DNA from: Actinophytocola xinjiangensis
GTDB taxonomy: Bacteria > Actinomycetota > Actinomycetes > Mycobacteriales > Pseudonocardiaceae
DNA length: 64,000 nucleotides
Reading direction: 5' to 3'
Assembly: GCF_001921215.1 (NCBI RefSeq)
Contig: NZ_MSIF01000013.1
Coordinates: 124,001-188,000 of the forward strand
Positions 37,133-60,437 of the stretch are shown in pieces. A program made the position numbers and the translations under genes. The stretch's first letter is position 1. Every line of letters begins with the position of its first letter. The notes under the pieces are model-generated. The model was given only the letters and a program-made list of their open reading frames with translations, had not been told where the DNA came from and ran no database searches.

Positions 37133-37672
37133 CCTGGTGCGGTGGCACCGGGGAGGCGTTCGTCTCGCGAGCCGGGTTGGCCAGGCCTCGCGCTCGACGG
37201 TCCTTGGCCGCCGCCTCGACGGCGATGCGGTTCGACCAGGCACGGACGCGGTGTGGCAGGCTCGCCGACCGGACGTTCCGGCGCCCCACCGACCGGCTCG
37301 ACCAGGCAGACTCCACAGGTCTTCCACTCGCGGCCGAAGTTGTCCACAGCCGCCCCGGGACAGGCCGAATTCCCCGCCCAACGCGACTAAGCTGGAAATC
37401 GGGGGGACCCCCCGCGCGAGGGTGCGATGCGATGGTGCCGGGCCAGGGTCCTCGATGAGGCCGTGTTCTGCGCCGTGCTCGAATGGGGAATGAGGCGAGC
37501 GGCCCCTGGGTGACGTGGCGGTGTGGGGATCCTGGCGGCGGGGAAGCGCGCGGGGAGATCCTGGCGTTGCTGCTGCGGGCACGGCTGGGGCTGGCTGCGC
37601 TGTCGACCGTGGGTGATTCACCAGGTCGCAGGTCCGGCCGGCCCAGTTTGCTCCCGCCGGTTCAGGGCCTGG
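37133..37672. other. 0.54-kb intergenic region with repeat element A
   Basis: The gap lies between the convergent TetR and epimerase genes. No reading frame in it has family features. Element A occupies 37326-37422. The 250 bases after it (37423-37672) are G-rich on the plus strand and lack a supported gene; a 28-codon frame beginning GCGATGCGATGG just after the hairpin is not convincing. Confidence 0.75.
37326..37422 (+). repeat. Dispersed intergenic element A (type I)
   Basis: The order is CTCGCGG, TTGTCCACA (37340-37348), 39 bases, TAAGCT (37388-37393), GGAAATC, then a GGGGGGACCCCCC hairpin (37401-37413) and GCGCGAGGG. The same order with the same 39-base gap recurs at 40414, 41349 and 60017. 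Confidence 0.9.
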
Positions 37673-38116
37673 TCAGTGCCCCGTGTCGGCGGCCTCGACC
37701 AGTTCGACCAGGACGCCGCCCGCGTCCTTGGGGTGGATGAAGTTCACCCGGCTGTTGGCGGTGCCGGCGATGGCCTCGTCGTAGATCAGGCGCAAACCCT
37801 TGGCGCGCAACGTCTCCGACACGGCGTCCAGGTCGCTGACCCGGTAGGCGAGCTGCTGCATCCCCGGCCCGCCTCGGGAGAGGAACTTGGCGATCGTCGA
37901 CTCCGGCGTCAGCGGTGCGAGCAACTGGATGGCGGCCCCGCCGGTGTTGCCGGGCGGGCGCATCATCGCCTCGCGCACGCCCTGGCGGTCGTTGATCTCC
38001 TGGTGGTAGAGCTCCAGGCCCATGACGTCGCGGTAGAAGGCGATCGCCTCGTCCAGGTCCGCCACGGCGATACCGACGTGGTCGATGGCGGTGATGTACG
38101 ACGTGAGCTCGTCCAT
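37673..38116 (-). CDS. mce: Methylmalonyl-CoA (ethylmalonyl-CoA) epimerase
   Basis: This 147-residue VOC-fold metal enzyme flips the 2R/2S forms of methylmalonyl-CoA, and in this pathway also ethylmalonyl-CoA, to supply the B12 mutases. It has the metal-binding pattern of the family: AIDHVGIAVADLDEAIAFY, MQQLAYRVSDLDA and GVLVELVEA. ATG 38116 is preferred because TACGTT ends seven bases upstream, giving a leaderless start; a TTG nine bases earlier would overlap that box. It is divergent from the thiolase gene. Confidence 0.94.
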   Translation of the reverse strand: MDELTSYITAIDHVGIAVADLDEAIAFYRDVMGLELYHQEINDRQGVREAMMRPPGNTGGAAIQLLAPLTPESTIAKFLSRGGPGMQQLAYRVSDLDAVSETLRAKGLRLIYDEAIAGTANSRVNFIHPKDAGGVLVELVEAADTGH

Positions 38117-38121
38117 GCCTG

Positions 38122-38131
38122 ACAACGTAAC
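38122..38131 (-). promoter_or_regulatory. Decamer GTTACGTTGT in the mce promoter
   Basis: On the minus strand the decamer GTTACGTTGT carries TACGTT as -10 box, seven bases before the ATG of mce. The same ten bases occur before tetR at 36480-36489. Confidence 0.5.
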
Positions 38132-38206
38132 TCGGCCGGGTGGCCGGTGGCTGTGCGGCTACTCACATCGTGCCCGGACGGGCAGGCCTGGGCCGAGTAT
38201 GGTCAT

Positions 38207-38224
38207 GTTAACGGCCGCTAGCAT
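38207..38224 (+). promoter_or_regulatory. Promoter motif before thiolase
   Basis: GTTAACGGCCGCTAGCAT is a variant of the ecm/ccr motif, with GTTA, GGCC and a TAGCAT -10-like end at the same spacing. It lies 17 bases before the GTG, whose ribosome site GGGAGG is at 38230-38235. Confidence 0.55.
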
Positions 38225-38241
38225 CTTCTGGGAGGCACCAA

Positions 38242-39414
38242 GTGTCGGGTTCCGTCATCGTCGCCGGGGCGCGTACGCCGATCGGGCGACTGCTGGGTTC
38301 GCTCAAGGACTTCACCGGGGCGCAACTCGGTGGGATCGCGATCAGGGCGGCGCTCGAACGCGCCGGGGTCGCGCCCGAGCAGGTGCAATACACGATCATG
38401 GGCCAGGTGCTGACGGCGGGCGCCGGGCAGATCCCCGCCCGGCAGGCGGCGGTCGCCGCCGGCATCCCGATGAGCGTGCCGGCGTTGACGATCAACAAGG
38501 TGTGCCTGTCGGGGCTGGACGCGATCGCGCTCGCCGACCAGCTCATCCGCGCCGGCGAGTTCGACATCGTCGTCGCCGGTGGGCAGGAGTCGATGACCCA
38601 GGCGCCGCACCTGCTGCCCAAGTCCCGCTCCGGTTTCAAGTACGGCGACGTGACGATGATCGACCACATGGCCCACGACGGGCTGTTCTGCGCGTTCGAC
38701 CAGGTCGCGATGGGGGCGTCGACGGAGAAGTACAACTCCCGCTACGGCGTGACCCGCGAGGAGCAGGACGCGTTCTCCGCGCGGTCCCACCAGCTCGCGG
38801 CCGCCGCGCGGGAGCGGTTCGCCGAGGAGATCGCGCCGGTGAGCATCCCGCAGCGCAAGGGCGACCCGGTCGTGTTCGACACCGACGAGGGCGTGCGCGC
38901 GGACACCACCGCCGAAGGGCTCGCCAAACTGCGCCCGGCGTTCGCCTCCGACGGGACGATCACCGCGGGGTCGGCCTCGCAGATCTCCGACGGCGCCGCC
39001 GCGGTCGTGGTGATGAGTCAGGCCAAGGCGCGGGAGCTGGGGTTGACGTGGCTGGCCGAGATCGGCGCGCACGGCGTCGTCGCCGGCCCGGACGCCAGCC
39101 TGCACGAGCAGCCGGCGAACGCGATCAGCGCGGCGCTGGCCAAGGCGGGCCGCACGGTCGAGGACCTGACCCTGGTGGAGATCAACGAGGCGTTCGCCGC
39201 CGTCGGCATCGTGTCGACCAGGTCGCTGGGCATCAGCGAGGACATCGTGAACGTCAACGGTGGCGCGATCGCCCTCGGTCACCCGATCGGCGCATCCGGC
39301 GCGCGTCTGGTCGTCCACCTCGCCTACGAGCTGAAGCGGCGGGGCGGCGGCCTCGGCGCGGCAGCCCTCTGCGGCGGCGGCGGACAGGGCGACGCGCTGC
39401 TGCTGAGTGTCTAG
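38242..39414 (+). CDS. Acetyl-CoA C-acetyltransferase (biosynthetic-type thiolase)
   Basis: This enzyme condenses two acetyl-CoA to acetoacetyl-CoA, or the reverse. The 390-residue thiolase has the acyl-enzyme Cys88 ([11 protein letters not shown]), His347 ([12 protein letters not shown]) and Cys377 ([10 protein letters not shown]). The start is GTG 38242, six bases after GGGAGG. It ends inside meaB with an 8-base overlap, so the two are one operon. It can feed the pathway through hydroxybutyryl-CoA to crotonyl-CoA and Ccr. Confidence 0.94.
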
Positions 39415-40360
39415 TGTGCACATTCCGGGGCTCGTCGCGGACGCACGGGCCGGCCGGCAGCGCGCGATCGCGCGACTGATCTCCCTCGTCGAGGACGAGA
39501 GCCCGCACCTGCGCGCGGTCGCCGCGGCGTTGACGCCGCACACCGGCCGCGCGCGGGTGCTCGGCCTGACCGGCCCGCCCGGCGTCGGCAAGTCCACCTC
39601 GACGTCGATGCTGATCACGGCGTTGCGCGAACGGGGCCAGCGGGTCGGTGTCCTGGCGATCGACCCGTCCTCGCCGTTCTCCGGCGGGGCGCTGCTCGGC
39701 GACCGGATCCGGCTGCACGACCACACGACCGACCCCGGGGTGTTCATCCGCTCGATGGCGACCCGAGGTCACCTCGGTGGTCTGGCGACCGCGACCCCGC
39801 AGGCGCTGCGCGTGCTCGACGCCGCCGGCTTCGACGTGGTCCTGGTGGAGACCGTCGGAGTTGGACAGTCCGAAGTAGACATCGTGGCGCTGGCTGACAC
39901 CACCGTGGTCCTGCTGGCTCCCGGCATGGGCGACGGAATCCAGGCGGTGAAGGCGGGAATCCTCGAGATCGCCGACGTCCTGGTGGTCAACAAGGCCGAC
40001 CGCGACGGCACCGACCAGACCGTGCGGGACCTGCGCACCATGATCGCCCTGGGCCGGCGCGGAACCGGCCCGTCCTGGCGCCAACCGATCGTCCGCACCG
40101 TGGCGACAACCGGGGCGGGCTCCGACGACCTGATGTCCGCCCTCGACTCCCACCACGACTGGCTGACCACCCACGGCGAACTGGAGACCGGACGACGCCG
40201 CCGCGCCCGCCGCGAGGTGGAGGAGATCGCGGTGCGGGAACTGCGCGCCCGCCTCACCAACATCAGTGGCGGTGACACCCTGGACCGGTTGGCCACACAG
40301 GTCGCCGCCGGCGAACTCGACCCCTACGCGGCCGCCGACGACCTCATCGGTCCTGGCTGA
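39407..40360 (+). CDS. meaB: Methylmalonyl-CoA mutase-associated GTPase MeaB
   Basis: This 317-residue G3E-family GTPase is a chaperone that loads and protects the adenosylcobalamin cofactor of acyl-CoA mutases. It has the P-loop GPPGVGKST near residues 55-63, the switch segment [17 protein letters not shown], and NKAD for guanine. The start is GTG 39407, overlapping the thiolase; GTG 39416 is an alternative. Its likely client in this window is the ethylmalonyl-CoA mutase; a methylmalonyl-CoA mutase elsewhere is also probable. Confidence 0.93.
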
Positions 40361-40746
40361 CGTCGTCGCCCTGACGTTCGCCGTGGATCCCGCCGGGTGT
40401 CTGCTCGTTGTCCACTCGCGACCCGAGTTGTCCACAGGCGGCCGCCGACCAGCCATTGTCGTCGCCGCACACGACTAGACTGGAAATCGGGGGGACCCCC
40501 GCGCGAGGGAGATCGGTGGTTGGGCGGGAGCGGTCTTCGGGCTTCTTGTGTGGCAACGAACTGGGTGTCGGCCTGGCTGGCGGGTTGTGGGATCGGGGAG
40601 TTGGCGGAGGAGGCTCGGCCTCCGCGCGGTGGGGTAAGGACGCGAGTGCGTTCGGCGTCCCGCTCGCGGGCGAGGTTGTCCACCGGTGCGGTGGTCGGAC
40701 ATCTCTTCAGTGGTGGGGAGGTTTTCGGACTGGAGCGTCTGGGGAC
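40361..40746. other. Intergenic region with repeat element B
   Basis: The 386 bases between meaB and grpB contain element B (40414-40509). The 237 bases after it are G-rich on the plus strand. A frame runs open from here into grpB, but its composition (GLWDRGVGGGGSASARWG) is low-complexity and it has no family match, so I treat it as noncoding or as leader. Confidence 0.7.
40414..40509 (+). repeat. Dispersed intergenic element B (type I)
   Basis: CTCGCGACCCGAG is followed by TTGTCCACA (40428-40436), 39 bases, TAGACT (40476-40481), GGAAATC, GGGGGGACCCCC (40489-40500) and GCGCGAGGG. A second box, TTGTCCACT, lies exactly 20 bases upstream at 40408-40416. Confidence 0.92.
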
Positions 40747-41325
40747 GTGCCGTTTTCCGATGAGCGCGGTCAGGTTGTCCTGGTTGAGTACCGGTCCCAG
40801 TGGCCGGAGGAGTTCGAGCACCTGGCCGGGGTGTTACATGCGGCGTTGGGCGACCTGGCGTTGCGGATCGACCATGTGGGCTCCACGTCGGTACCGGGTC
40901 TGCCGTCCAAGGACTGCCTCGACGTCCAGGTGCGGATGAGTTCGCTCGACGAGGCGCGGGACGTCCCGTTGCTCGCGGCGATCGGGTTCCGGTGCCGACC
41001 CGAGCCGTGGAACCGCGTCGAGGTCTCCAGCGGTCAGCGGTGCCACAAACTCGTTGTCGCGCCGCCGGTCGGTGCGCGCACGTGCAACGTCCACCTGCGG
41101 GAGAGCACCGGACCCAACGCCCGCTTCGCACTGTTGTTCCGGGACTACCTGCGCGCGGACGACACCGCCCGCCGGGCGTGGGGGGACTTCAAGCAACGGC
41201 TGGCCGTGAACGTGCCGGACCTGGTGGACTTCGGCCAGATCAAGGTCCCCGCCACGCAGGTACTGATGAGGGCGGCGCAACGATGGGCCACCCAGACCGG
41301 TTGGAGCGTTGAGCGAACGGCGTGA
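40747..41325 (+). CDS. GrpB/UPF0157 family protein
   Basis: This 192-residue nucleotidyltransferase-fold protein of the GrpB family has YRSQWPEEFEHLAGVL, then RIDHVGSTSVPGLPSKDCLD, NVHLRESTG and LFRDYLRADDTARRAW. The conserved Asp pair lies in KDCLDVQV. Activity is unknown. GTG 40747 is the closest start to the conserved domain; the open frame continues upstream into repeat B without similarity. The gene is bracketed by two same-direction copies of the repeat (B and C). Confidence 0.82.
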   Translation: MPFSDERGQVVLVEYRSQWPEEFEHLAGVLHAALGDLALRIDHVGSTSVPGLPSKDCLDVQVRMSSLDEARDVPLLAAIGFRCRPEPWNRVEVSSGQRCHKLVVAPPVGARTCNVHLRESTGPNARFALLFRDYLRADDTARRAWGDFKQRLAVNVPDLVDFGQIKVPATQVLMRAAQRWATQTGWSVERTA

Positions 41326-41348
41326 CCGCACCTCGGCACAGCTCGACC

Positions 41349-41443
41349 ATTCGCGACCGCGGTTGTCCACAGCCGCGTTTCGACAGGTCCACATCCCCGG
41401 CCGACGCGACTAAACTGGAAATCGGGGGGATCCCCGCGCGGGG
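41349..41443 (+). repeat. Dispersed intergenic element C (type I)
   Basis: TTCGCGACC is followed by TTGTCCACA (41363-41371), 39 bases, TAAACT (41411-41416), GGAAATC, GGGGGGATCCCC and GCGCGGGG. It lies between the convergent grpB and manA genes. The hairpin has one A-T change relative to element B but keeps the pairing. Confidence 0.9.
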
Positions 41444-41516
41444 CGGCTCACTGTGTGGGTGGCGGTGGCCGAGGACGCCGCGCCGGTCCGGGGTGGGTTC
41501 TTGTCGGGGCCCAGGG

Positions 41517-42539
41517 TCAGGTGGTTGGCGGGAGGCAGCGGATCGCCGACAGGTCGCCTTCGATGGTGGTGGTGCCGGCGGCGTGGGGGAGAACGTAGGT
41601 CTCGCCCTTGGTGATCTCCACCGGTCCGGCGTGTTCGGTGTGTACGACACCTTTGCCGGCCAGGGCGACCAGGACGGCGAACGACGGCGCCAGCTCCGCG
41701 CCCGCCCGTACCCGTTCCGCGCGGAAGAAGGACTGCGCGGGCTGGCCGAACAGGTCACGTGCCGGGGCGCCGGTGTCGTCCTGGTGGCGGACCAGTTCGC
41801 CCAGGCGTTCGCCGCCCCAGGACTGGCGGTCCACGCAGTTCAGGGCGGTGTCGAAGCCGATGCCGAGGTGGCCGCCGGCTTCGTCGTCGAGGAAGTTCTT
41901 CCATTCGAGGGTGACGGAGAGGTCCGTTGGCTGTTGCAGCTCGACGATGAACACGCCGGCGCCGATCGCATGTGGCACGCCCGCCGGCACGAACACCGTG
42001 TCGCCGGGGCGGACGGTGACCTCGTTGAGCGCGCCGAGCATCGCGGTCGAGTCCTGGCGGGCCACCCAGTCGGCGACCGTGGCGGGGGACTGGTCCTGCG
42101 CGAATCCCAGGTAGACACTCGGGTTCTCGGTCGCGGTGCCGACCACGATCCACGCCTCGGTCTTGCCGAAGCGGGAGCCGAAATGCGTGGCGGCGAACTC
42201 GTCGGAGGGATGACAGTGCACCGGCAGGCGCTGGCCCGCGTCGAGGAGCTTCACCAGCAGCGCGGAATCCGCACCGTAGTTGGCCAGGTGCGCGGCACCG
42301 AGCCAGTTGTCGGCGTGCTCGGCGATCGCCTCCCGCAGCAGCGTTCCGGACGGCAGGCGCGACAGCCCGACATCGCGCTGGCCGTGCAGCGTCGTGCACG
42401 ACCCCACCCAGTCCTCCGGGCCGAACGCCAGCGGCGCACCGTCCCCACGCAGCTCGGCGATCGCCGCGCCGCCCCGGTAGAACCGCTCCGGCTGGTTCGC
42501 CGGGAGCAGGACAGGGCGGCGTCCCTCGGTATCGGTCAC
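41517..42539 (-). CDS. manA: Class I mannose-6-phosphate isomerase-like protein
   Basis: This 340-residue cupin-fold sugar isomerase interconverts mannose-6-phosphate and fructose-6-phosphate or a related pair. The zinc site is visible in RLPVHCHPSDEFAA and KTEAWIVVG, and the later histidine in FVPAGVPHAIGAG. It overlaps the LacI gene by four bases (ATGA), so the regulator and enzyme form one operon. Sugar entry into glycolysis or mannosylation precursors is the likely role; the exact sugar depends on what the LacI protein senses. Confidence 0.88.
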   Translation of the reverse strand: MTDTEGRRPVLLPANQPERFYRGGAAIAELRGDGAPLAFGPEDWVGSCTTLHGQRDVGLSRLPSGTLLREAIAEHADNWLGAAHLANYGADSALLVKLLDAGQRLPVHCHPSDEFAATHFGSRFGKTEAWIVVGTATENPSVYLGFAQDQSPATVADWVARQDSTAMLGALNEVTVRPGDTVFVPAGVPHAIGAGVFIVELQQPTDLSVTLEWKNFLDDEAGGHLGIGFDTALNCVDRQSWGGERLGELVRHQDDTGAPARDLFGQPAQSFFRAERVRAGAELAPSFAVLVALAGKGVVHTEHAGPVEITKGETYVLPHAAGTTTIEGDLSAIRCLPPTT

Positions 42540-43561
42540 GGTCCAACCTCTCCGGATCCTCGTGGTACGAGCCGAACCGGCAGCACGATACGGCGCGGCG
42601 GCGCACTGTCACCGGCCATGCGTGCGAACAGCAGTTCGGCGGCGGTCTGCCCGAGCAGACCAGGGTCGACGGCGACCACGCTCACCGGCGGGTCGAGCAG
42701 GTCGGCGAGTTCGAAGTCGTCGAAACCGACCAGGGCGGGGCGGTGCGCCGCGCCGGCGAGCGCCCGCAGCGCCAGCACCGTGATCCGGTTGTTGCCGGTC
42801 ACCACCGCGGTGGCCCCCGACGCGCCGCCCAGGAGCTCGCCGAGCACCTCAGGCAGGTCGCCCGGGGTGTGCGGGCCCATCGCGACGAGCCGCTCGTCGA
42901 ACGGCAACCCGGCCCGCGCGTACCCCTCACGGAACCCGCGCAGCCGTTCGCCGGCGGTGAAGATCTCGGGCGAGTCACCGAGGAACGCGATCCGCCGGTG
43001 CCCGTGCCGAGCGAGATGGGTGACGGCGGTCGAGGTGCCGTCCAGGTTGTCCACCAGCACCGTGTCGGCCACCACGTCCCCCGGCGGCCGGTCGACGAAC
43101 ACCACCGGTAGCCCCGAGGTGATCTCCGGCACCAGGTAGGCGTGCCGCCGCCCCGCCGGCACGACGATCAGCCCGTCGACCCGGCGCGCACAGAACTCCA
43201 GCGACAGTTCGCGCTCCCGGACCGCGTCCTCGTCCGAGGACCCCGTGAGGACCTGCCGGCCGTGCCGGCGCGCGACCTCCTCGGCGGCCCTGGCCAGACC
43301 CGAGTAGAACGGGTTCGCGACGTCCTCCAGGACGATGCCGATCGTTCCCGTCGACGAGCCGCGGCGCAGGTTGAGCGCGCCGATGTTGCGGCGGAAGCCG
43401 AGTCGTTCGATGGCGGCCAGGACGCGCTCGGCGGTTTCGTTGTGGACGCCGGGTTCGTCGTTGACCACGCGGGAGACGGTCTTGATGCTCACGCCGGCCA
43501 GGCGGGCCACGTCGTTCATGGTGGCCCTGCGGGGTTTGCGCGGGGTGGACAACGTTGTCAT
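42536..43561 (-). CDS. LacI-family transcriptional regulator
   Basis: This 341-residue repressor has the LacI headpiece (MNDVARLAGVSIKTVSRVVN) and hinge region, then a periplasmic-binding-like sensor domain (GTIGIVLEDVANPFYSGLAR, DGLIVVPAG, GFDDFELADLLDPPVSVVAV). It probably controls the overlapping manA and itself. Two palindromes of LacI-operator type lie at 43548-43559 and 43647-43662. ATG 43561 is used; the ATG at 43519 directly before the headpiece is possible, and in that case the first palindrome would lie in the leader. Confidence 0.9.
   Translation of the reverse strand: MTTLSTPRKPRRATMNDVARLAGVSIKTVSRVVNDEPGVHNETAERVLAAIERLGFRRNIGALNLRRGSSTGTIGIVLEDVANPFYSGLARAAEEVARRHGRQVLTGSSDEDAVRERELSLEFCARRVDGLIVVPAGRRHAYLVPEITSGLPVVFVDRPPGDVVADTVLVDNLDGTSTAVTHLARHGHRRIAFLGDSPEIFTAGERLRGFREGYARAGLPFDERLVAMGPHTPGDLPEVLGELLGGASGATAVVTGNNRITVLALRALAGAAHRPALVGFDDFELADLLDPPVSVVAVDPGLLGQTAAELLFARMAGDSAPPRRIVLPVRLVPRGSGEVGP
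43548..43559. promoter_or_regulatory. Perfect palindrome GACAACGTTGTC at the lacI start
   Basis: This 12-bp perfect palindrome overlaps the presumed start codon of the LacI-type regulator. It shares the TGACAA/TTGTCA half-sites with the palindrome 90 bases upstream, as expected for an autoregulatory operator pair. Confidence 0.6.
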
Positions 43562-43646
43562 GGTGATGGTGGGGGAGGGGTCGCGGTCAGGGGACTTGAA
43601 CATCCTGACGTGGTGAGGGTGTTTCCGCAAGGGGGTCGCTGCGGGG

Positions 43647-43662
43647 TTGACAAGGTTGTCAA
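43647..43662. promoter_or_regulatory. LacI-type operator TTGACAAGGTTGTCAA
   Basis: Inverted half-sites TTGACAA and TTGTCAA flank a GG centre in the lacI-manA upstream region. On the minus strand the box TTGACA also fits a -35 element, so repressor binding could block the polymerase. Confidence 0.6.
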
Positions 43663-43724
43663 CGTTGGGGTGACCGGACGCTGGTTGACGTGTCGTTCGT
43701 GGTTGTGGGTGCCCCGGGTCGGGG

Positions 43725-44708: not shown

Positions 44709-44733
44709 TCGCCTCTCCATTTCGTGCTCGGCT

Positions 44734-46703: not shown

Positions 46704-46711
46704 CCGATCGA

Positions 46712-46738
46712 CGACGCCCCGGCCCGGCCGGGGCGTCG
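46712..46738. terminator. Hairpin terminator after ABC exporter
   Basis: CGACGCCCCGGCC (46712-46724) pairs perfectly with GGCCGGGGCGTCG (46726-46738). It lies between the stops of the exporter permease and the opposing MarR gene and can serve both. Confidence 0.8.
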
Positions 46739-46749
46739 CCGGTGGACCC

Positions 46750-47628: not shown

Positions 47629-47654
47629 TCCGGCGGGCGTGCCAGGATAGAAGT

Positions 47655-50198: not shown

Positions 50199-51602
50199 TC
50201 AGGACAGCTCGCAGGCCGTCACACCCTCCAGCGTGCCCGCCCGGAACACCGACACCCGCTCGTAGCCGGTGTCGATCGCGCCACCGGCGCCGTCGCGGCC
50301 AGGGTAGTCGTAGCGCAGCAGCACCTGGATCGCCTCGTCGAGGTCGCCGGGGGACAGGGTGAAGCCGTTGGTGCGGTCCAGCAGCATCCCCGTGTACGAG
50401 CCGGACAGGCACAGCAGCTGACGCTGCGTCTGCTCACCCTCCAGCGGTTTGTCCAGCGCGTCCAGCGCCGCCATGCCGTAGCGGCCGGCCAGGATGATGC
50501 CGGTGGCGTAGTCGCCGACCTGCTGGTGCAGCTGCGGCAGCTCACCCTCGGTGGAGATCTCGATCTCGTCGTCGTCGGGGCAGAACGCGATCGGGCCCTG
50601 GTCCCGGTCACATTCCGGGTCGTTCTCGACCGGCGCCAGCGACGGCGCCGTCCAGGTCGCGCCGGCGTCGGTGACCACCGTGTCGAAGTACTCGCCGAGG
50701 TCGTCGGTCATGTTCTGCACCAGGTCGTCGAAACGTAGGTTGCCGCCGCGTTCGGCGTCGGCGGCCTGGCGGAAGCCGCGCTGGGTGAAGCGGCGGTTGT
50801 CCACGCTGATGTCGGCGCACAGCCCCGCGCCGGAGTCGTAGCCGTCCTGGAAGGCCGACACCCGGTCGAACGCGTCGCCGTGAGCCCCGGCGTCGGTTTG
50901 CTCCGTACCGATCGGATCACGAAAGGTGATCAAGGATTCCAGGGCGGAGTCCAGCCGGTCCTCGGCGATGCTCAGATGCTCGGCGTTGCCCTCGGCGACC
51001 CAGCGGACGAACGAGCCGGCGTAGCAGTCGGCCTGCGCCTCGACCAGGATCGTCGGGTAGCGCTCGGGGTCGGTGCGCTGCTCCTCGACCGAGATCCCGG
51101 CCCTGCGCTGCACCGCGTGGCCCATCTCGTGCGCCAGCACCAGCATCACCGCCGCCTCGCCGAACCGCTCCCGGAGCACCGGCAGCAGCGCGGCCCGGTC
51201 CCAGGCGATGACGTCCTCCGACGGGCAGTAGAATGCGTTGCCCTCCACGTCGGCGGCCTTGTCCACACACGGCGGGGCCGGCGCGTCGGCCGAGGCGGTG
51301 TCCACCGAGAAGTAGCCGCCGGACAACTCCTCCCAGTCCCGACCGTCGAACGTCGCGGGAAAAGTCTCGGTCCAGTAACCGCGGACGTCGGTGAGCACCG
51401 CCGCGGCCAACTGATCGATCTCGCCGCCGTCGCTGTTCTTGATGAACGACGGGTCGACGCCGCCGGTGCCCGGATCGGGGTTGGTGACCACCGCGCCGGT
51501 GCCGACCGGTTCACCGGCCACCGCCGTCGTGCAGGCGGACACCACCACCAGCAACAACAGCGGAATGGTCAGGCGAACGGCGGACGCGGAGGAGGTACGC
51601 AC
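50199..51602 (-). CDS. Lipoprotein neutral zinc metallopeptidase, paralogue 2
   Basis: This 467-residue protein of the same family and layout as its neighbour has signal and lipobox VVVSAC and the zinc site HEMGH in MLVLAHEMGHAVQRRAGISV, with LVEAQADCYAGSFVRW later. Shared blocks include VIAWDRAALLP versus AIAWDRGQLLP and GAHGDAFDRVSAFQDGY versus GAHGLAFDRVFAFQQGF. GTG 51602 begins the signal peptide; further upstream codons give a non-signal extension. Both paralogues keep the metal site, so both may be active outside the cell. Confidence 0.83.
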   Translation of the reverse strand: MRTSSASAVRLTIPLLLLVVVSACTTAVAGEPVGTGAVVTNPDPGTGGVDPSFIKNSDGGEIDQLAAAVLTDVRGYWTETFPATFDGRDWEELSGGYFSVDTASADAPAPPCVDKAADVEGNAFYCPSEDVIAWDRAALLPVLRERFGEAAVMLVLAHEMGHAVQRRAGISVEEQRTDPERYPTILVEAQADCYAGSFVRWVAEGNAEHLSIAEDRLDSALESLITFRDPIGTEQTDAGAHGDAFDRVSAFQDGYDSGAGLCADISVDNRRFTQRGFRQAADAERGGNLRFDDLVQNMTDDLGEYFDTVVTDAGATWTAPSLAPVENDPECDRDQGPIAFCPDDDEIEISTEGELPQLHQQVGDYATGIILAGRYGMAALDALDKPLEGEQTQRQLLCLSGSYTGMLLDRTNGFTLSPGDLDEAIQVLLRYDYPGRDGAGGAIDTGYERVSVFRAGTLEGVTACELS

Positions 51603-51662
51603 CCGTCCAGTGTGCCGAATCCGGTGTGTCCGGTGGGTGAGTCCGGCCCGATCGTTCACAGC

Positions 51663-53855
51663 TCAGGACTCGGGGACCAGCCAGGTCACGCCCTGCGGCG
51701 GGAGCTGGAGCACCGCCGACGCCGGCTGGCCGTGCCACGGTTCGTCGGTCGCCTCGACGCCGCCCAGGTTGCCCCAGCCGGAACCGCCGTAGTCGTGGGC
51801 GTCGGTGTTGAGCAGCTCGTGCCAGTGCCCTGGCAACGGCAGGCCGACGCGGTAGTCTCGGTGCGGGTGACCGGCGAAGTTCGCGACACAGGCCAGCACG
51901 GCGCGCTCGTCAGCGGGGTCGCGGCGCAGGAAGCTCGCGACGTTGTTGGCCGAGTCGTTGGCGTCGATCCACGCGAAGCCCTCCTGGCGCACGTCCGCCG
52001 CGTACAGGGCCGGGTGGTCGCGGTAGTGCCGGTTCAGGTCGCGGACCAGCGACTGCAGGCCGCTGTGGCGCGGGTACTCCAGCAGGTGCCAGTCCAGCGA
52101 ACGGTTCTCCGACCACTCCTCGGTCTGGCCGAACTCGCCGCCCATGAACAGCAGCTGCTTGCCGGGATGGGCCCACATGTAGGCCAGCAGCGAGCGCAGC
52201 GCGGCGGCCTTGTTCCACTCGTCGCCCGGCATCCGCGCCCACAGCGAGCCCTTGCCGTGCACCACCTCGTCGTGGGACAGCGGCAACACGAAGTTCTCAC
52301 TCCACGCATACATCAGCGAGAACGTCAGCTCGTTGTGGTGATAGGAGCGGTGCACCGGATCGTGGGCGACGTAACTGAGCGTGTCGTGCATCCAGCCCAT
52401 GTTCCACTTGAAACCGAACCCGAGACCACCCAGGTGCGTCGGCCGGGTCACCCCCGGCCACGCCGTCGACTCCTCCGCCGCCATGATCGCGCCCGGATGA
52501 TGCTTGTAGACGGTGGCGTTGAGCTCCTGCAGGAACCGCACCGCGTCCAGGTTCTCCCGGCCGCCGTGCTCGTTGGGCGCCCACTGGCCCTCCTCGCGGG
52601 AGTAGTCCAGGTAGAGCATCGAGGCCACCGCGTCGACCCGCAGGCCGTCGATGTGGAACTCCTCGATCCAGTAGAGCGCGTTGGCGACCAGGAAGTTGCG
52701 GACCTCCGTGCGGCCGAAGTCGAACACCAGCGTCCCCCAGTCGGGGTGCTCGCCCCGGCGCGGATCCGCGTGCTCGTAGAGCGGGGTGCCGTCGAACCGC
52801 GCCAGCGCCCACGAGTCACGCGGGAAGTGCGCCGGCACCCAGTCCATGATCACGCCGACGTCTCGGGCGTGCAGCGCGTCGACCAGGTGCCGGAACTCGT
52901 CCGGCGACCCGAACCGGGCGGTCGGCGCGTAGTAGGAGGTGACCTGGTAGCCCCACGAACCGCCGAACGGGTGCTCGGCCACCGGCAGCAGCTCCACATG
53001 CGTGAACCCCTGCGCGGCAACGTAGTCCGCCAGCTCGGTCGCCAGCTCGCGGTAACCCAGACCGGGACGCCACGAGCCCAGATGCACCTCGTAGACACTC
53101 ATCGGCGCGTCGTGCCAGGCAGTGGAGTCGCGGCGGGCGAGCCAGACGTCGTCGGCCCACTCGTAGGTCGAGACCGTGACCTTCGACGCCGTCGCCGGCG
53201 GCACCTCCGTGGCGAACGCCATCGGGTCGGCCTTCTCGTGCCAGGTGCCGTCCGGACCCAGGACGCGGAACTTGTAGTGGGTGCCGGCCGGCAGACCAGG
53301 GACGAACAGCTCCCAGACCCCCGACGCGCCCAACGAACGCAGCGGATTGGCCCGCCCGTCCCAGCCGTCGAAGTCGCCGGCCACCCGCACACCGCTCGCG
53401 TTCGGCGCCCACACCGCGAACGACGTGCCCTCGACGACGCCGGTGGGGGTGTCGTAGGAGCGCACGTGCGCGCCAAGGACCTGCCAGAGGCGCTCGTGGC
53501 GGCCCTCCCGGATCAGGTGCTGGTCCAGCTCGCCCAGGGTCGGCAGCCACCGGAACGGGTCGTCGACCAGGACCGGATCGCCGTCGTAGTCCACTTCGTA
53601 CAGGTAGTTGCCCGGCGGCTCGGGCAACACGGCGGTGAACATGCCCTCGGCCGACTCCGCGAGCGGATGCCGCTGCTCGCCGGCCAACAGGGTCACCGAC
53701 TTCGCGCCGGGCCGGTAGGCCCGCACGACGGTGGTCCCGGCGTGGTCGGAATGCACGCCGAGGACCGAATGGGGGTCGTGATGGGCGCCGGTGACCAGCC
53801 GCCGCAGGTCGTCGGGCGGCATGACGCTCGGGTCGGCCGGTGGGTTGAGGTTCAT
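51663..53855 (-). CDS. glgB: 1,4-alpha-glucan branching enzyme
   Basis: GlgB adds alpha-1,6 branches to glucans made by GlgE. The 730-residue protein has an N-terminal carbohydrate-binding region (DPHSVLGVH), a CBM48 module and the GH13 domain. The nucleophile Asp is in [19 protein letters not shown], the acid/base Glu in [13 protein letters not shown] and the third Asp in [20 protein letters not shown]. Length is normal. It ends 60 bases before a metallopeptidase gene. The DNA upstream of its start contains repeats and element F instead of the usual neighbour genes. Confidence 0.97.
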
Positions 53856-53956
53856 CGGTCTTCATTGTGCCGCCGCGCGGTGCGGGATGCCCAACGTCCC
53901 TCGTTACATGGTGGTTTCGGTGTGGGCAGGTCCGGCGTCCCTGGGGTGTGCCGTCC

Positions 53957-53995
53957 TGGGGTGCTTTCGTGGGGTGCTTTCGTGGGGTGCCGTCG
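53957..53995 (+). repeat. 13-bp tandem repeat, three units
   Basis: The unit TGGGGTGCTTTCG occurs at 53957 and 53970, then as TGGGGTGCCGTCG at 53983. Degenerate copies flank it at 53942 and 53996. It lies just upstream of element F. Confidence 0.8.
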
Positions 53996-54043
53996 TGAGG
54001 TGCCACTGGCTGGTCGACCAGGGCCGGTACCTGTGGATGGAGC

Positions 54044-54138
54044 GCACGGTTCTGTCGGTGTCGGCTCGTATCCTTGAAAGAGGGGTCCCCCTGGCCGGGT
54101 GCGATGGGGTGTGGCGGCGGGATTTGCGTTCGCACCGG
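54044..54138 (+). repeat. Dispersed intergenic element F (type II)
   Basis: This is the plus-strand partner of element E. The 27 identical bases lie at 54069-54095 (TATCCTTGAAAG, AGGGGTCCCC, CTGGC), flanked by GTCGGTGTCG and GCGGGATTTGC as in E. TGTGGATGG at 54032-54040, the reverse of a DnaA-box-like CCATCCACA, lies about 29 bases upstream of the TATCCT box. Confidence 0.85.
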
Positions 54139-54204
54139 CACCGGCACCGGCACCGGCACCGGCACCGGCACCGGCACCGGCACCGGCACCGGCACCGGCA
54201 CCGG
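54133..54204 (+). repeat. CACCGG hexanucleotide repeat, twelve units
   Basis: Twelve perfect CACCGG units start inside the last bases of element F and run to 54204. The array is likely to vary in length by slippage. It is followed by GCGTGGGC-type imperfect repeats. Confidence 0.95.
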
Positions 54205-54358
54205 CGCGAGCGTGGGCGTGGGCGTGGGGACGAGGTGTCGGGGGGCACGTGGCGTGGGCGTGGGCACCAGGCACGGGCGTCGACGTGGGGAGCGGGGCCG
54301 GATGGGGGGTGCTGGGTGGGGGCCGGGGGCTGCCCGTCGCGCGCCGGGCGGGCCCTGG

Positions 54359-54745
54359 TCAGGACTGGTGGGCCAGCTGGATCAGGTTGCCGCAGGTGTC
54401 GTCGAGGACGGCGGTGGTGGTCTGGCCCATGGTGGTGGGTTCCTGGGTGAAGCGCACGCCCAGGTCGCGCAGGCGGTCGTACTCCTTGCGCACGTCGTCG
54501 ACGGCGAACTGGGTGAACGGGATGCCGTCGGCGACCAGGGCGTCCTTGAAGGGTTTGGCGGCGGGGTGGCCGCTGGGTTCCAGCAGCAGTTCGACGCCGT
54601 CGGGGTCGTCGGGGGACACGACGGTCAGCCAGCGGTCCTCGCCGAGTGGCACGTCGTGTTTCTTCTCGAAGCCCAGGATCTCCGTGTAGAAGCGCAGCGC
54701 CCTGTCCTGGTCGTCGACCAGGACGCTGGTCAGTCTGATCCGCAC
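54359..54745 (-). CDS. VOC-family (glyoxalase-like) protein
   Basis: This 128-residue single VOC domain has RIRLTSVLVDDQDRALRFYT, HDVPLGEDRWLTVV, GVELLLEPSGHPAAKPFKDA and a final GNLIQLAHQS. Such proteins are metal-dependent lyases, dioxygenases or binding proteins; the substrate is unknown. GTG 54745 is chosen because the coding DNA just before it supplies a very strong ribosome site (GAGGAGGAGGA). The ATG at 54766 would place that site inside the gene. It overlaps the ArsR gene end by 16 bases, so it is controlled and translated with it. Confidence 0.82.
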   Translation of the reverse strand: MRIRLTSVLVDDQDRALRFYTEILGFEKKHDVPLGEDRWLTVVSPDDPDGVELLLEPSGHPAAKPFKDALVADGIPFTQFAVDDVRKEYDRLRDLGVRFTQEPTTMGQTTTAVLDDTCGNLIQLAHQS

Positions 54746-55020
54746 GTCGTCCTCCTCCTCAGCCATCGCTCGATGATGGGTTCGAGCGGGTCGGTGTTGA
54801 TGTGGTGGAACTTGTACCGGCCCTCGCGCCTGGTCTCGACCAGGCCGGCCCGCTCCAGCACGTCCAGGTGCTGGGAGACGGCCTGGCGCGACGAGGTCAA
54901 CCCGTGGTTGGTCGTCAGGCGACCACAGATCTCGAAGAGCGTCTGGCCGTCGCGGGCGGTCAGCTCGTCGAGGATCGTCCGGCGCGTGGGGTCGGCGAGC
55001 GCTTTGAAGACGTCACCCAC
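54730..55020 (-). CDS. ArsR-family winged-helix repressor
   Basis: This 96-residue regulator has the ArsR core VFKALADPTRRTILDELTAR, SRQAVSQHLDVLERAGLVET and the wing RREGRYKFHHI. The metal-type CxC motif of arsenic sensors is absent, so it belongs to the SdpR/non-metal group often paired with VOC or SRPBCC proteins. GTG 55020 lies eight bases after TAACGT, so the message is probably leaderless. An inverted repeat sits within its promoter spacer, a likely self-operator. Confidence 0.88.
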   Translation of the reverse strand: MGDVFKALADPTRRTILDELTARDGQTLFEICGRLTTNHGLTSSRQAVSQHLDVLERAGLVETRREGRYKFHHINTDPLEPIIERWLRRRTTCGSD

Positions 55021-55028
55021 GGGACGCC

Positions 55029-55058
55029 ACGTTAGGCAAGTGAACGCTTGCCTGTCAA
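55029..55058 (-). promoter_or_regulatory. arsR promoter with embedded operator
   Basis: On the minus strand TTGACA (55053-55058) and TAACGT (55029-55034) are 18 bases apart. The perfect inverted repeat AGGCAAG (55034-55040) / CTTGCCT (55047-55053) fills the spacer. Repressor bound there would exclude polymerase. The -35 box lies two bases beyond the stop of the CBS gene. Confidence 0.75.
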
Positions 55059-55059
55059 G

Positions 55060-55497
55060 TCAGCTCGAACCCCGGACGATGTAGCGCTCCAGCTGCTCGC
55101 TCTGCGACTCCAACTGCTCGATCCGGCCACGCACCACGTCACCGATGCTCACCAGCCCGACCAGCGACCCGTCCGCCACCACCGGCATGTGCCGGACCCG
55201 GCGCTCGGTCATGATCTTCGCGATCGCCGTGACGTCGTCACCCCGCTCGCAGGTCACCACCCGCGTCGTCATGATCTCGGCGACCGGGGCGTGCAGCAGC
55301 TGCGCCCCACGGTCGTTGAGCCGGCGCACGACGTCGCGCTCGGTCACGATGCCGACCAGCGCGCCGGCATCGTCCACCACGACCACCGCGCCGATGTTGT
55401 GCCGGGCGAGGTCATCCAACAGGCCGGTCACCGACAGCCCGGGAGTCGCCGTGACCACCTCAGAACCCTTGTGCCGCAACAGATCCGAAATCCGCAC
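55060..55497 (-). CDS. Tandem CBS-domain protein
   Basis: This 145-residue protein made of two CBS domains has VRISDLLRHKGSEVVTATPG, IGAVVVVDDAGALVGIVTER, DVVRRLNDRG, VAEIMTTRVVTCERGDDVTA and RHMPVVADGSLVGLVSIGDV. Such modules bind adenine nucleotides and sense energy state. A C-terminal helix (RIEQLESQSEQLERYIVRG) may mediate dimers. GTG 55497 matches the family start. Located between the ArsR and maltokinase genes, it is not part of the canonical GlgE cluster. Confidence 0.88.
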   Translation of the reverse strand: MRISDLLRHKGSEVVTATPGLSVTGLLDDLARHNIGAVVVVDDAGALVGIVTERDVVRRLNDRGAQLLHAPVAEIMTTRVVTCERGDDVTAIAKIMTERRVRHMPVVADGSLVGLVSIGDVVRGRIEQLESQSEQLERYIVRGSS

Positions 55498-55564
55498 GTG
55501 GACACCCCGATTCCATCGTCGACGCACTCCGTGTTACCAGGCTAACTTCGGGGCCCGCGCCCCG

Positions 55565-56874
55565 CTAGAGGAAGCTCCAGCGGCGGATCGCCGCGAGCGG
55601 GATCGGCCGCCACTCCGGGCGGTTGTGGTGCTCGTAGCGCACCTCGTACACCGCCTTGTCCAGCTCCAGCGCGCGCAGCAGCACCTCCTGGTCCCGCGGA
55701 TCCCCCGCCACCTCGGCATACCCGTCGCAGAACGCGCCCCGGTTGCGGTCGGACCACTCCTGGGCCCGCGCGGTCAACTGCCGGTCCGCCTCCTCGCCGG
55801 CCAGTAAGTGGAACGCCGCATAGTCGAACGACCGCAGCATCCCCGCCACGTCGACCAGCGGCGAGCGCGGCGTGCGGCGCTGCTGGGGGGTGGCCGCCGG
55901 CTCACCCTCGAAGTCGATGAGCACCCAACCGTTGGTGGTGCGCAGGGTCTGGCCCAGATGCAGGTCACCGTGGACCTGTTGGACGGTCAGCCCACCGCCG
56001 AGCGCGCGAACCCGGTCGAACGCCTCCCGGATCGTGCGTTCCTCGCCACGCAGGTCGGGGACCTCGGCCAGGGCGGTGTCCAGTCTGGCGTGCATGGCGT
56101 CCACTTCGGTCTCGACGGCGCCCGCGCCGGCCCGCGCGGTGCCCAGCGCGTCGGCCAGCGACGCGTGCACCTGCGCCACCGCCGCGCCCAACCGCCTGGC
56201 CTCGCCGGCGAAGTCGCCGCCGACCTCGTTGGCGTACAGGTCGGCCTCGGCCAGCAGGTCACGCACACTGGCCGTGGCCGTCGCCCACCCCTCGACCGCG
56301 TCGGGCAGGAACCGTTGCAGGAAGCCGAGGACCAGACCCTCCTCGGCGATCACCCCCAACGGCGCGGCGATGTGCCGGCTGCCCACCGAACGCAACGCCC
56401 GGTGCAGTCGCACGTCCCGGTTCGGCCCGGGATCGGGCTGGCGGTACAGCTTGAGGATGTACTCCGTGCCGTACACGATCGAGGTGTTGCTCTGCTCCAC
56501 GCCGATCGGCCTGGCCCGCAGGCCGGTACGCAGCGTGACGCCCGGCTCGGTGCTGAACGTCAACCCGCCGATCACCGCGCCGCGCGCGATCAGCGTCAGC
56601 AGGTGGCCCATCAGCTCGGGGTCCAGCGTCGCGTCGTAGACCTGGGTGCCGCCGTCGACCGCGATGACCGCGCCCGGGTCGGCGAACGCGTCGCGGGTGC
56701 CCAGCGGCAGCTGGTACAGCTCGGAGTCGACCTCGACCATCGTGTGCTGCAGGCCGTCGGCCAGCGGGGTCGCCGACACGGTGCGCAGCGTCCGCGCGCC
56801 GCGTGCCTTGGCCCGGTACCACCGCTGGTCGACCAGCCAGGGGAGCAGCAGCTCGCCGAGATCCTCCGCTCGGA

Positions 56875-56878
<4 letters not shown>
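55565..56878 (-). CDS. mak: Maltokinase
   Basis: Mak phosphorylates maltose to maltose-1-phosphate, the donor for GlgE. The 437-residue protein has the N-terminal cap ([20 protein letters not shown]) and a kinase-like C-terminal domain. The catalytic Asp is in [15 protein letters not shown] and the metal Asp in [13 protein letters not shown] 56878 overlaps the treS stop by four bases (GTGA). Coupled expression with TreS fits the known TreS-Mak complex that channels trehalose-derived maltose. Confidence 0.96.
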
Positions 56879-58758
<1,880 letters not shown>

Positions 58759-58873
58759 TCCCGCACCCTCACCTACAGGATCGGCATCCGGCGCCGTTGC
58801 CGGATGGTGGTGATCATGGTGCCAGGTTGGCCCCGGCACCCGTGTCCATGGTTACCGGCGCGGGGCGTTCCCG

Positions 58874-58908
58874 CACAGGGGACGGCGCGACGAGCACCGT
58901 CCCCTGTG
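58874..58908 (-). terminator. Hairpin terminator after M43 protease
   Basis: CACAGGGGACGG (58874-58885) pairs with CCGTCCCCTGTG (58897-58908), a perfect 12-bp stem with an 11-base loop. It begins nine bases after the protease stop on the minus strand and isolates that gene from treS. Confidence 0.8.
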
Positions 58909-58917
58909 GAGCGAACG

Positions 58918-59856
58918 TCAGGCCCGGTACGCCGCCCAGGAATCCTGCATCCTGTCGGCCTGTCCCGGGGTGAACTGGTTGTAACAACTGTCGACGGAGT
59001 AGTCCATGTAGTTGTGGATCGGGTCCAGGCCCGCCGACGAACAGGTGTCCTTGCCCGCGGGGCAGCCCGACGTCGGCGAGTTCATCGCCGGGGTGTCGGC
59101 CACCTCGTCGTTCGTCGAGGAACACCCGCCCTGGAAGGTGTGGTAGAGCCCCAACCAGTGCCCGGTCTCGTGCGAGGCCGTCTTGCCCAGGTTGTAGTCG
59201 GCGATCGGGCCGCCGGGCAGCGAACCCCACTGGATGACGATGCCGTCGAGCTCCGGGTCGCCCGCGTACCACCAGGGGAAGGTCGCGTAGCCGAGGTAGC
59301 CGGTGTTGGTCGACCAGATGTTGAGGGTGCGCGAGTCACCCTCGTGGGTCGCGGTCTTCAACGCGGCCTCGCCGGCGGCCGAGTCCGGGTCGTTGAACCA
59401 GGAGTTGTTCTGATGTCGGCGCACCGCCTGGAGAGTGAAGGTGAACTCGGTGTCGGCCGCAGCCGAGGACTCGCCGCCCGCGAAGTTCTGGTTCATCTCG
59501 GCGATCTGGGCGTTGATCGCCGCGTTGGAGACGTTGCCCGTGCCGTTGGTGGCGTACACGACGTGGAACACCACCGGAACGGTGACCTGGGCCGGGCGGA
59601 CCTTGCCGGCCAGCCGGGAGGCCAACTGCCGCTCGACGGCATCGGCCTCGGCCTTGGTGACGTCATTGCGGTCGAGTTCATGCTGGTGACCGGCCTGGGG
59701 ACGGGTGTTGGACTCGGCGCACTCGGTGCCGTGACTCGGCGTGGGAACCGGCGAGGCGGCGACCGTCGAGGCCGGCAGGACGGCGAACGCGGAGGCCGAC
59801 AGCGCGAACACGAACGCGGCGGCGACACGACGGCCGCCGGGGGATAACCGGGACAT
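58918..59856 (-). CDS. Secreted M43 (pappalysin-type) zinc metalloprotease
   Basis: This 312-residue secreted protease has a signal peptide (MSRLSPGGRRVAAAFVFALS, cleavage near VAA). The mature enzyme has the extended zinc motif HETGHWLGLYH (HExxHxxGxxH) and the Met-turn in HNYMDYSVDSC. The C-terminus has paired cysteines typical of cytophagalysin-like M43B enzymes. GGAAGG lies about nine bases before the ATG. It sits within the GlgE-pathway cluster but has no metabolic link to it, and its own terminator marks it as a separate insertion. Confidence 0.9.
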   Translation of the reverse strand: MSRLSPGGRRVAAAFVFALSASAFAVLPASTVAASPVPTPSHGTECAESNTRPQAGHQHELDRNDVTKAEADAVERQLASRLAGKVRPAQVTVPVVFHVVYATNGTGNVSNAAINAQIAEMNQNFAGGESSAAADTEFTFTLQAVRRHQNNSWFNDPDSAAGEAALKTATHEGDSRTLNIWSTNTGYLGYATFPWWYAGDPELDGIVIQWGSLPGGPIADYNLGKTASHETGHWLGLYHTFQGGCSSTNDEVADTPAMNSPTSGCPAGKDTCSSAGLDPIHNYMDYSVDSCYNQFTPGQADRMQDSWAAYRA

Positions 59857-60437
59857 GTGCGGGTACCTTCCGTGCAGGGCGGGTCACGGTCCGTGCCGTG
59901 CCCGTCCTTGGAAGGTACTTCGCCGGCTCACCGCAGCGGAAGTCCTTGTGTCCCACCAAGATCCTCAGCGGCGACGGGCTGCGGGGCGAAACCGGGACCG
60001 GCTCGCCACCCCACCAACCACGCCCCGAGTTGTCCACATCCCCGCCCGGAAGATGAATCCCCCACCGCACCACCGAATAGAATGGCCCTGAGGGGTGCCC
60101 CCGGGAGGGTGGGTGTTTACCCAGGGGTTGTCGCTCTCGGCGAACAGTGGTCGACGGGGGTTGTTGGTGGGTGGGTTGGCTGGGCGGGATGGCGGTTGGT
60201 GGGTAGTGGTGCGCGAGTGGCGGTTGGCCGGTGAGTCGTGGTCGGCGGGCAGCGGGGGAATGGGTGAGCGGTGGTTGACAGCGCGGCCGGTGTCTGAGGG
60301 TTGGCGCGCGGCTGCGGAAAGCGGTCGGCTGGTAGCTGTTGGCGTCGCAGTCCGGTGAGCGGTGGTCGGTGGGGTGGTTGGCGCGGCGGTGTGCGGCCGA
60401 TCGCCGAGGAACGACCGGCGAGAGCGGGCGAGCCGCC
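59857..60437. other. 0.58-kb intergenic region with repeat element D
   Basis: The gap lies between the M43 start and the glgE stop. It contains element D (60017-60109) and then about 330 bases that are strongly G/T-rich on the plus strand. An 87-codon open frame (60095-60358) is Trp/Gly-rich low-complexity sequence and is not accepted as a gene. Confidence 0.75.
60017..60109 (+). repeat. Dispersed intergenic element D (type I, divergent)
   Basis: CCCCGAG is followed by TTGTCCACA (60030-60038), exactly 39 bases, TAGAAT (60078-60083), then GGCCCTG, AGGGGTGCCCCC and GGGAGGG. The hairpin sequence differs from copies A-C but keeps the G-run/C-run plan and the spacing. Confidence 0.75.

Follow-up and report, generated by a model that had tools for sequence, protein, structure and literature searches.

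REP/BIME-type repeats are dispersed extragenic palindromes that occur in many short copies at the 3′ ends of genes and carry a hairpin. Correia repeat elements of Neisseria are dispersed and intergenic, and are said to bear promoters and a site for a host protein. datA and DARS of Escherichia coli and the DnaA-box clusters of Streptomyces are single loci, and 6C RNA has a C-run/G-run hairpin. Here we describe an element that can be set beside each of these. It was found in a 64,000-nt stretch of DNA from Actinophytocola xinjiangensis (NZ_MSIF01000013.1, positions 124,001–188,000 of the forward strand; ‘the window’ below means this whole stretch), which lies within contig 5 of the 9.5-Mb draft genome. 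The element is dispersed, intergenic, non-coding and ∼100 bp long, and belongs to the Pseudonocardiaceae. Its plan is a distal DnaA-type box (in about half of the copies), 18–20 bp, a proximal box TTGTCCACA, 37–40 bp, a −10-like box TANNNTGG and a G-run/C-run inverted repeat.

The family resembles REP/BIME repeats in being made of many short, dispersed extragenic palindromes at gene 3′ ends, in its hairpin and in being a possible insertion target of mobile elements, but differs in having DnaA-type boxes and a −10 at fixed spacing. As a dispersed intergenic element with putative promoters and a putative host-protein site it is like the Correia elements, a comparison made by description only; Neisseria belongs to another phylum, and we know of no DnaA box pair in Correia elements. 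Like datA, DARS and the Streptomyces clusters, the copies are non-coding DnaA-box sites outside the replication origin (oriC), but there are 5–84 of them, each with a −10, a hairpin and either one or two boxes. The G-run/C-run hairpin recalls 6C RNA and other actinobacterial small RNAs in Rfam, but the window gave no Rfam match at the gathering threshold and no tRNA or tmRNA, and no Rfam RNA matched the element in five sampled loci. No named family matching the element was found in the open-licence literature. We regard the family as real, large and apparently undescribed, and as a member of no named family.

Four copies in the window

The window contains five occurrences of the box TTGTCCACA, where 0.30 would be expected, and none of 100 shuffled sequences reached five. 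Four of these are the proximal boxes of element copies, at 37340, 40428, 41363 and 60030, all on the + strand. An earlier note on this DNA had picked out the same four sites, with coordinates 13–14 too low, and had given the distance between the two boxes as exactly 39 bases. This holds for all four copies, in each of which TTGTCCACA is followed after 39 bases by a TA..T box, GG and a G-run/C-run inverted repeat. The −10-like boxes of copies 1–4 are TAAGCT, TAGACT, TAAACT and TAGAAT. Copies 1–3 share the downstream segment GGAAATCGGGGGGA(C/T)CCCC, as the note had said of three copies, whilst copy 4 is of a different class, GAGGGGTGCCCCCGGGAGGGTGGG. Noncoding DNA does follow each copy, but it extends 277, 263, 98 and 352 bases from TANNNTGG to the next gene in copies 1–4, rather than the 70–330 given before (genes here and below come from a home-made gene caller trained on the window). 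The fifth TTGTCCACA (51259–51267) lies within a called gene and has no element copy. The features of the four copies, read from the sequence and for the downstream core of copy 4 from the class I consensus described below, are as follows.

37320–37328, + strand: copy 1, degenerate distal box TCTTCCACT, 20 bp upstream of the proximal box
37340–37348, + strand: copy 1, proximal DnaA-type box TTGTCCACA
37388–37393, + strand: copy 1, −10-like box TAAGCT, 39 bases past the proximal box
37401–37413, + strand: copy 1, G-run/C-run inverted repeat GGGGGGACCCCCC
40408–40416, + strand: copy 2, distal box TTGTCCACT, 20 bp upstream
40428–40436, + strand: copy 2, proximal box TTGTCCACA
40476–40481, + strand: copy 2, −10-like box TAGACT
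40489–40500, + strand: copy 2, inverted repeat GGGGGGACCCCC
41363–41371, + strand: copy 3, proximal box TTGTCCACA; no distal box by the 17–20 bp rule
41411–41416, + strand: copy 3, −10-like box TAAACT
41424–41435, + strand: copy 3, inverted repeat GGGGGGATCCCC
60030–60038, + strand: copy 4, proximal box TTGTCCACA; no distal box by the 17–20 bp rule
60078–60083, + strand: copy 4, −10-like box TAGAAT
60092–60113, + strand: copy 4, class I-like downstream core GGGGTGCCCCCGGGAGGGTGGG

Spacing, distal box and downstream classes

The A. xinjiangensis genome was searched with the pattern TTGTCCACAN{25,55}TANNNTGG, using the reversed pattern as a control. There were 61 matches (33 forward, 28 reverse) and none with the control. 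Although spacings of 25–55 were allowed, all 61 fell at 38 (10 copies), 39 (33) or 40 (18), so that the loss of spacing in further copies, which the earlier note had named as grounds for dropping the pattern, was not seen. Starting instead from the hairpin, the pattern GGAAANCGGGGGGNNCCCC alone found 29 sites in the same genome, every one preceded by TANNNT; by eye, 18 have an exact TTGTCCACA at 38–40, seven a near match and four none. The association is therefore not made by the search, at least for this type of hairpin.

A wider set of 297 distinct copies was assembled with spacings of 34–44 allowed, and includes five chance-like matches from other families (L032–L036). The distance from TTGTCCACA to TANNNTGG was 36 in 2 copies, 37 in 32, 38 in 96, 39 in 116, 40 in 47, 41 in 3 and 42 in 1. 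When spacings of 10–110 were allowed in all fetched loci and a downstream G-run was required, 296 pairs lay at 37–40 and 98 at 56–59, with the remainder scattered; controls tallied without the G-run requirement gave 0 (reversed box) and 3 (TTGTGCACA). The second peak arises mostly because the distal box is taken as the start. Family-wide, the spacing is therefore 37–40 and not strictly 39, and a consensus DnaA box stands at a fixed position upstream of the −10, the arrangement looked for in a DnaA-controlled promoter.

A distal box of the form ...[TC]CCAC[AT], beginning 17–20 bp upstream of the proximal box, is present in 153 of the 297 copies, compared with 1–5 in five control windows. Its offset is −19 in 97 copies, −18 in 40, −20 in 14 and −17 in two, and its commonest forms are TTGTCCACA (85), TTATCCACA (28) and TTTTCCACA (17). 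Seven matches in Kibdelosporangium banguiense have 50–51 bases from box to −10, about one helical turn longer; class II-like hairpins are present in the five of these that were read. The fixed distance, together with the one-turn jump, suggests a box-bound protein that contacts RNA polymerase.

Downstream of the −10, 198 copies are class I, with the core TANNNTGGnnnnGGGGnCGCCCCCCGGGnnGGGTGGGGGCTG (longer core GGGGnCGCCCCCCGGGnnGGGTGGGGG; some of the C- and G-runs in this consensus are imposed by the class definition). Class IIa (17 copies) has GGGGGCCGGAGGCC and close variants, class IIb (58 copies) has GGGG..CCCC directly, and 24 copies are unclassed. Within the spacer, many copies of five genomes (G001, G002, G024, G049 and G100) have CAAGATC or its complement GATCTTG, and in G024 both are often present as an inverted repeat; this is possibly the site of a third protein.

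Taxonomic range

The search covered 100 genomes (A. xinjiangensis and 99 relatives), and copy positions given from it are those among the matches listed. At least one match was found in 42 genomes and 5–84 matches in 15, all of them Pseudonocardiaceae. In the 40 genomes of other families, the eight matches equalled the eight of the reversed-pattern control. A class I pattern that includes the downstream core had 17 matches in A. xinjiangensis and none in the 395 other genomes of a sample of the phylum. A scan of named genomes returned at least 118 stretches; among the best 80, 79 are titled with twelve genera of Pseudonocardiaceae (Actinophytocola, Streptoalloteichus, Kutzneria, Kibdelosporangium, Actinokineospora, Goodfellowiella, Labedaea, Amycolatopsis, Prauserella, Lentzea, Actinosynnema and Pseudonocardia) and one with a Melainabacteria bin, possibly mis-binned.

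Two origins were considered and rejected. The class I pattern found only three chance-like stretches in viral contigs, two of them identical, which does not point to phage (this search was of class I in viral contigs, with class II and the phage-record collection left out). An association with the DUF222/13E12 repeat was dropped, there being no PF02720 match in the A. xinjiangensis genome.

Gene context and strand asymmetry

Of the 57 A. xinjiangensis copies with a called gene downstream, 51 have that gene facing them; 40 copies are in tail-to-tail spacers and none is head-to-head. Leaving out 25 of the 297 copies that have no called gene on one side, 129 of 272 are tail-to-tail, 80 have both neighbours antisense, 55 have both in the element's own sense and eight are head-to-head. 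The next gene thus faces the element in 209 of 272 copies, i.e. the element stands at gene 3′ ends. We considered whether the tail-to-tail bias might be an artefact of the home-made, window-trained caller by comparison with element-free spacers of at least 80 bp in the same 118 named loci, and rejected this: elements are 38 tail-to-tail, 61 co-directional and two head-to-head (n = 101), against 29, 164 and 96, respectively, for the element-free spacers (n = 289). A role as promoter of the next protein gene was also rejected, since that gene is co-oriented in only 6 of 57 copies in A. xinjiangensis and 55 + 8 of 272 in all genomes. With the next gene mostly facing the element, most copies are therefore not protein-gene promoters.

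Base skew was measured on noncoding DNA from +45 to the next gene, over at most 250 bases. This DNA is G- and T-rich on the element strand, with a GC skew of 0.125 (0.100–0.146) and a TA skew of 0.105 (0.066–0.144). The intervals lie above zero in all three gene contexts tested, and tail-to-tail copies alone give 0.111 (GC) and 0.104 (TA). Upstream noncoding DNA has a GC skew of −0.032 and a TA skew of 0.052; the flip in base skew falls at the box. Such an asymmetry is what transcription from the element would produce, although a skew is not a transcript.

DnaA-type boxes and position relative to oriC

In both Mycobacterium tuberculosis and Streptomyces coelicolor, TTGTCCACA is listed as the high-affinity box for DnaA (PMC4285127). 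It also occurs downstream of dnaA in all 11 loci that reach past dnaA (a twelfth, L148, stops there), which speaks for a DnaA-type site. The dnaA–dnaN stretch of A. xinjiangensis itself has one perfect TTGTCCACA.

The distance to dnaA was tested against uniformity for every match to the 25–55 pattern, including chance ones. Clustering was seen in three single-contig genomes. In G032, 15 of 26 matches are within 10% of the half-chromosome from dnaA (Kolmogorov–Smirnov (KS) p = 1.2e-9), and in Kutzneria sp. CA-103260, 12 of 16 (KS p = 5.5e-9). In K. banguiense, 4 of 27 are within 10% and 13 within 25% (KS p = 5.8e-5). Among draft genomes other than G003 and G051, the dnaA contig of Labedaea rhizosphaerae (2.0 of 8.3 Mb) carries 43 of 76 matches, that of G024 (0.8 of 10.2 Mb) 13 of 47, that of Goodfellowiella (0.23 of 8.8 Mb) 7 of 77, and those of Actinophytocola gossypii (0.23 of 7.4 Mb) and A. 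oryzae (0.47 of 10.7 Mb) 3 of 23 each.

PafBC motifs and RNA features

The rule given for PafBC promoters in PMC5656591 is tTGTCRgtg-8 nt-TannnT. A relaxed motif, NGTCGG or TGTCRGTG exactly 8 bases before TANNNT, is present in 15/17 class IIa, 25/58 class IIb, 5/198 class I and 4/24 unclassed copies, and in none of the four window copies; it is a feature of part of the family only. Many class II copies thus resemble the mycobacterial PafBC-dependent (P1) promoters in fitting TGTCRGTG-N8-TANNNT in relaxed form. However, the known P1 promoters drive protein genes such as recA, whereas most of the present copies point at gene ends, and a DnaA-type box stands 37–42 (or 50–51) bp upstream of their −10.

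Two other explanations of the sequence past the −10 were rejected. A small open reading frame starting from the conserved NTG past the G-run had stop-free lengths no greater than those of the other two frames. A G-quadruplex is not favoured, as ViennaRNA with G-quadruplexes allowed kept the hairpin in four of five typed examples; the class IIa example switched.

Gain, loss and conservation of copies

The spacer that holds copy 1 is 540 bp long and separates a TetR-type gene from a glyoxalase-fold gene, the latter probably encoding a methylmalonyl-CoA epimerase. The same two genes abut or overlap in five congeners (gaps of −13 to 14), and the element is absent from all 15 orthologous pairs compared. 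The extra DNA at copy 1 is the entire spacer, well beyond 100 bp, and comparison of this one insertion with the five congeners by eye revealed no target duplication and no terminal repeats. For copy 3, next to a mannose-6-phosphate isomerase-like gene, no element was found in 13 other loci scanned; the neighbouring genes differ there, so this is a weak test of gain.

Elsewhere in A. xinjiangensis, the gene pairs flanking copies L010 and L012 have orthologues without an element in Kutzneria, and copy L114 has a counterpart in G003 but none in an Actinophytocola bin. At L089, three copies in tandem correspond to one in A. gossypii, and the class IIb copy L012 to a class I copy in the orthologous A. 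gossypii spacer. The orthologous pair of L099 bears the element in the opposite orientation, as is also seen for L197 versus L218, L301 and L308, L200 versus L219, L159 versus L303, and L305 versus L307. Eleven pairs of A. xinjiangensis copies have spacers at least 80% identical, and Streptoalloteichus tenebrarius has identical box-to-TANNNTGG strings; some copying is therefore recent. Head-to-tail arrays of 2–3 copies, 114–236 bp apart, are present on A. xinjiangensis contigs C9, C14, C16 and C71.

One copy looks old. A single antisense copy stands between the genes for cytochrome bd subunits I and II in seven loci (L046, L047, L059, L264, L274, L297 and L315), the named ones being from Amycolatopsis and Prauserella. 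All seven keep a box-like 9-mer at −19 (TTATCCACA in five, TTGTGCACA in one and CTGTGCACA in one), a 38-base spacing, the −10 and the core, while the spacer letters vary; the proximal box and TANNNTGG, and in some the G-run, were imposed by the search, but the distal box was not. The gene pair lacks the element in L246, L319 and L346. In L264, L297 and L315 the flanking proteins are 96–99% identical and the spacers are 291, 450 and 612 bases long.

A proposed mechanism and its rivals

On present evidence, the element appears to work like a REP or Correia-type repeat bearing a putative DnaA-type activated promoter. In the reading we prefer, to which we would give an even chance, it is a REP-like dispersed promoter module, bound by DnaA, that starts short non-coding RNAs, titrates DnaA, or both. 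DnaA, or a protein of the same site preference, would bind the one or two boxes (mostly 18–20 bp apart) and recruit RNA polymerase to the −10 box TANNNTGG 37–40 bp away. The transcript would start just past TANNNTGG, at the G-run/C-run hairpin, and a short non-coding RNA would be read towards the 3′ end of the adjacent gene, which is usually convergent. In many class II copies, a PafBC-type promoter (TGTCRGTG-N8-TANNNT) would make this damage-inducible. Copies near the origin may titrate DnaA, because copies crowd round oriC in the three single-contig genomes, and new copies would arise in lineages and be retained at gene 3′ ends.

The earlier note had offered a small-RNA promoter, a DnaA-responsive promoter and a mobile repeat as possible readings, and each finds partial support here. 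The distal box (153/297 versus 1–5 in controls) and the occurrence of TTGTCCACA past dnaA (11/11) are consistent with DnaA binding; TANNNT before 29/29 hairpin sites, the PafBC motif in 15/17 class IIa copies and the skew flip at the box point to a promoter; and 0–84 matches per genome, the missing copy 1 at 15/15 pairs and the opposite orientations point to gain or mobility, although no insertion boundary was found, nor a transposase, for which no aimed search was made.

Several observations weigh against the promoter module as we propose it. Four of the 29 hairpin sites have no recognisable box, 144 of the 297 copies have no distal box, as is also the case for window copies 3 and 4, and the 198 class I copies show no conservation past the hairpin core. 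Predicted folding scores modestly lower than in mononucleotide shuffles (mean z of −0.82 in class I, −1.09 in IIa and −0.91 in IIb), the stems are nearly all G–C so that covariation is uninformative, and Rfam found only a tRNA outside the element in the five sampled loci. Counts of 0–4 matches per genome are common within the Pseudonocardiaceae, and the element is therefore dispensable. The fragmented A. xinjiangensis genome has no oriC enrichment, with one of 61 matches on the dnaA contig where 1.0 is expected by length, and the 37-kb dnaA contig of S. tenebrarius has none among the matches listed (0.4 expected). According to PMC4210621, the oriC of Kutzneria albida lacks classic DnaA boxes, and a core-gene region surrounds it; another protein could share the site preference of DnaA, and such a core-gene region may explain part of the clustering.

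The element might instead be a REP- or MITE-like selfish repeat, with a transposase supplied elsewhere, whose motifs serve transposition or a host factor without benefit to the cell. A range of 0–84 matches per genome within one family would follow naturally, as would the absence of copy 1 from 15/15 orthologous pairs, the head-to-tail arrays, the recent copying (11 pairs of spacers at least 80% identical and the identical S. tenebrarius strings), the orthologous spacers with opposite orientation or a different class, and the placement at 3′ ends (tail-to-tail in 38/101 elements versus 29/289 element-free spacers). Against this, a long variable spacer of fixed length, the TANNNT box and the PafBC spacing are features of a promoter; outside the motifs most copies differ throughout, the cytochrome bd copy retains the motifs in seven loci, and the one insertion compared shows by eye neither terminal repeats nor a target duplication. 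We think a purely selfish repeat unlikely, though it is the rival we take most seriously.

If the boxes act only as titration sites, soaking up DnaA near oriC, the −10 and hairpin would serve only to mark the site or hold the DNA open, and any RNA would be unimportant. This accords with the clustering round dnaA in three single-contig genomes, with four of the five consensus boxes in the window belonging to elements and with the single perfect box in the A. xinjiangensis dnaA–dnaN stretch; PMC4210621 cites a cluster of DnaA boxes with a part in the regulation of replication in Streptomyces. Titration alone, however, needs neither a −10 at a fixed distance nor a hairpin, many class II copies retain a promoter motif and A. 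xinjiangensis lacks clustering. We consider this account improbable. We consider it very improbable that the element insulates gene ends, its outward promoter and hairpin stopping or colliding with read-through from the convergent gene. The downstream gene does face the element in 209/272 copies, but 55/272 lie between two genes in the element's own sense, the cytochrome bd copies lie between two co-directional genes of one enzyme, the class I core is not followed by a T-run, and many genera of Pseudonocardiaceae have few or no copies.

If DnaA does drive these promoters, a single protein would link the initiation of replication with dozens of non-coding transcripts, of which many would arise close to oriC in some genomes, and the family would be a dispersed repeat tied to the replication initiator, offering a sequence-defined system for the interplay of initiator titration and transcription. 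A bolder extension of the promoter module, which we regard as doubtful, is that 20–80 initiator-driven non-coding promoters, chromosome-wide but concentrated around oriC, convert DnaA activity or titration into a burst of G-rich, possibly R-loop-forming RNAs close to the origin that feed back on initiation or on the organisation of the nucleoid, with class II adding a PafBC damage input. Even if selfish, this would be a large, apparently undescribed family that reshapes the intergenic spacers of antibiotic-producing actinomycetes.

Copies cut at the hairpin

At the ends of contigs C20, C33 and C40, three GAGGGGTGCCCCCGG-type copies of A. xinjiangensis (L092, L100 and L104) run into CAGGGGGTCGGCAAAGTCG right past the hairpin, and all three contigs stop 103 bases past TANNNTGG. 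From CAGGGGGTCGGCAAAGTCG to the contig end C20 and C33 are identical, and C40 is common with them only over the first bases. A fourth copy (L107, on C46) is cut at nearly the same place by a different sequence. These are possibly insertion sequences that target the hairpin; insertion sequences targeting REP sequences are reported in PMC1525189.

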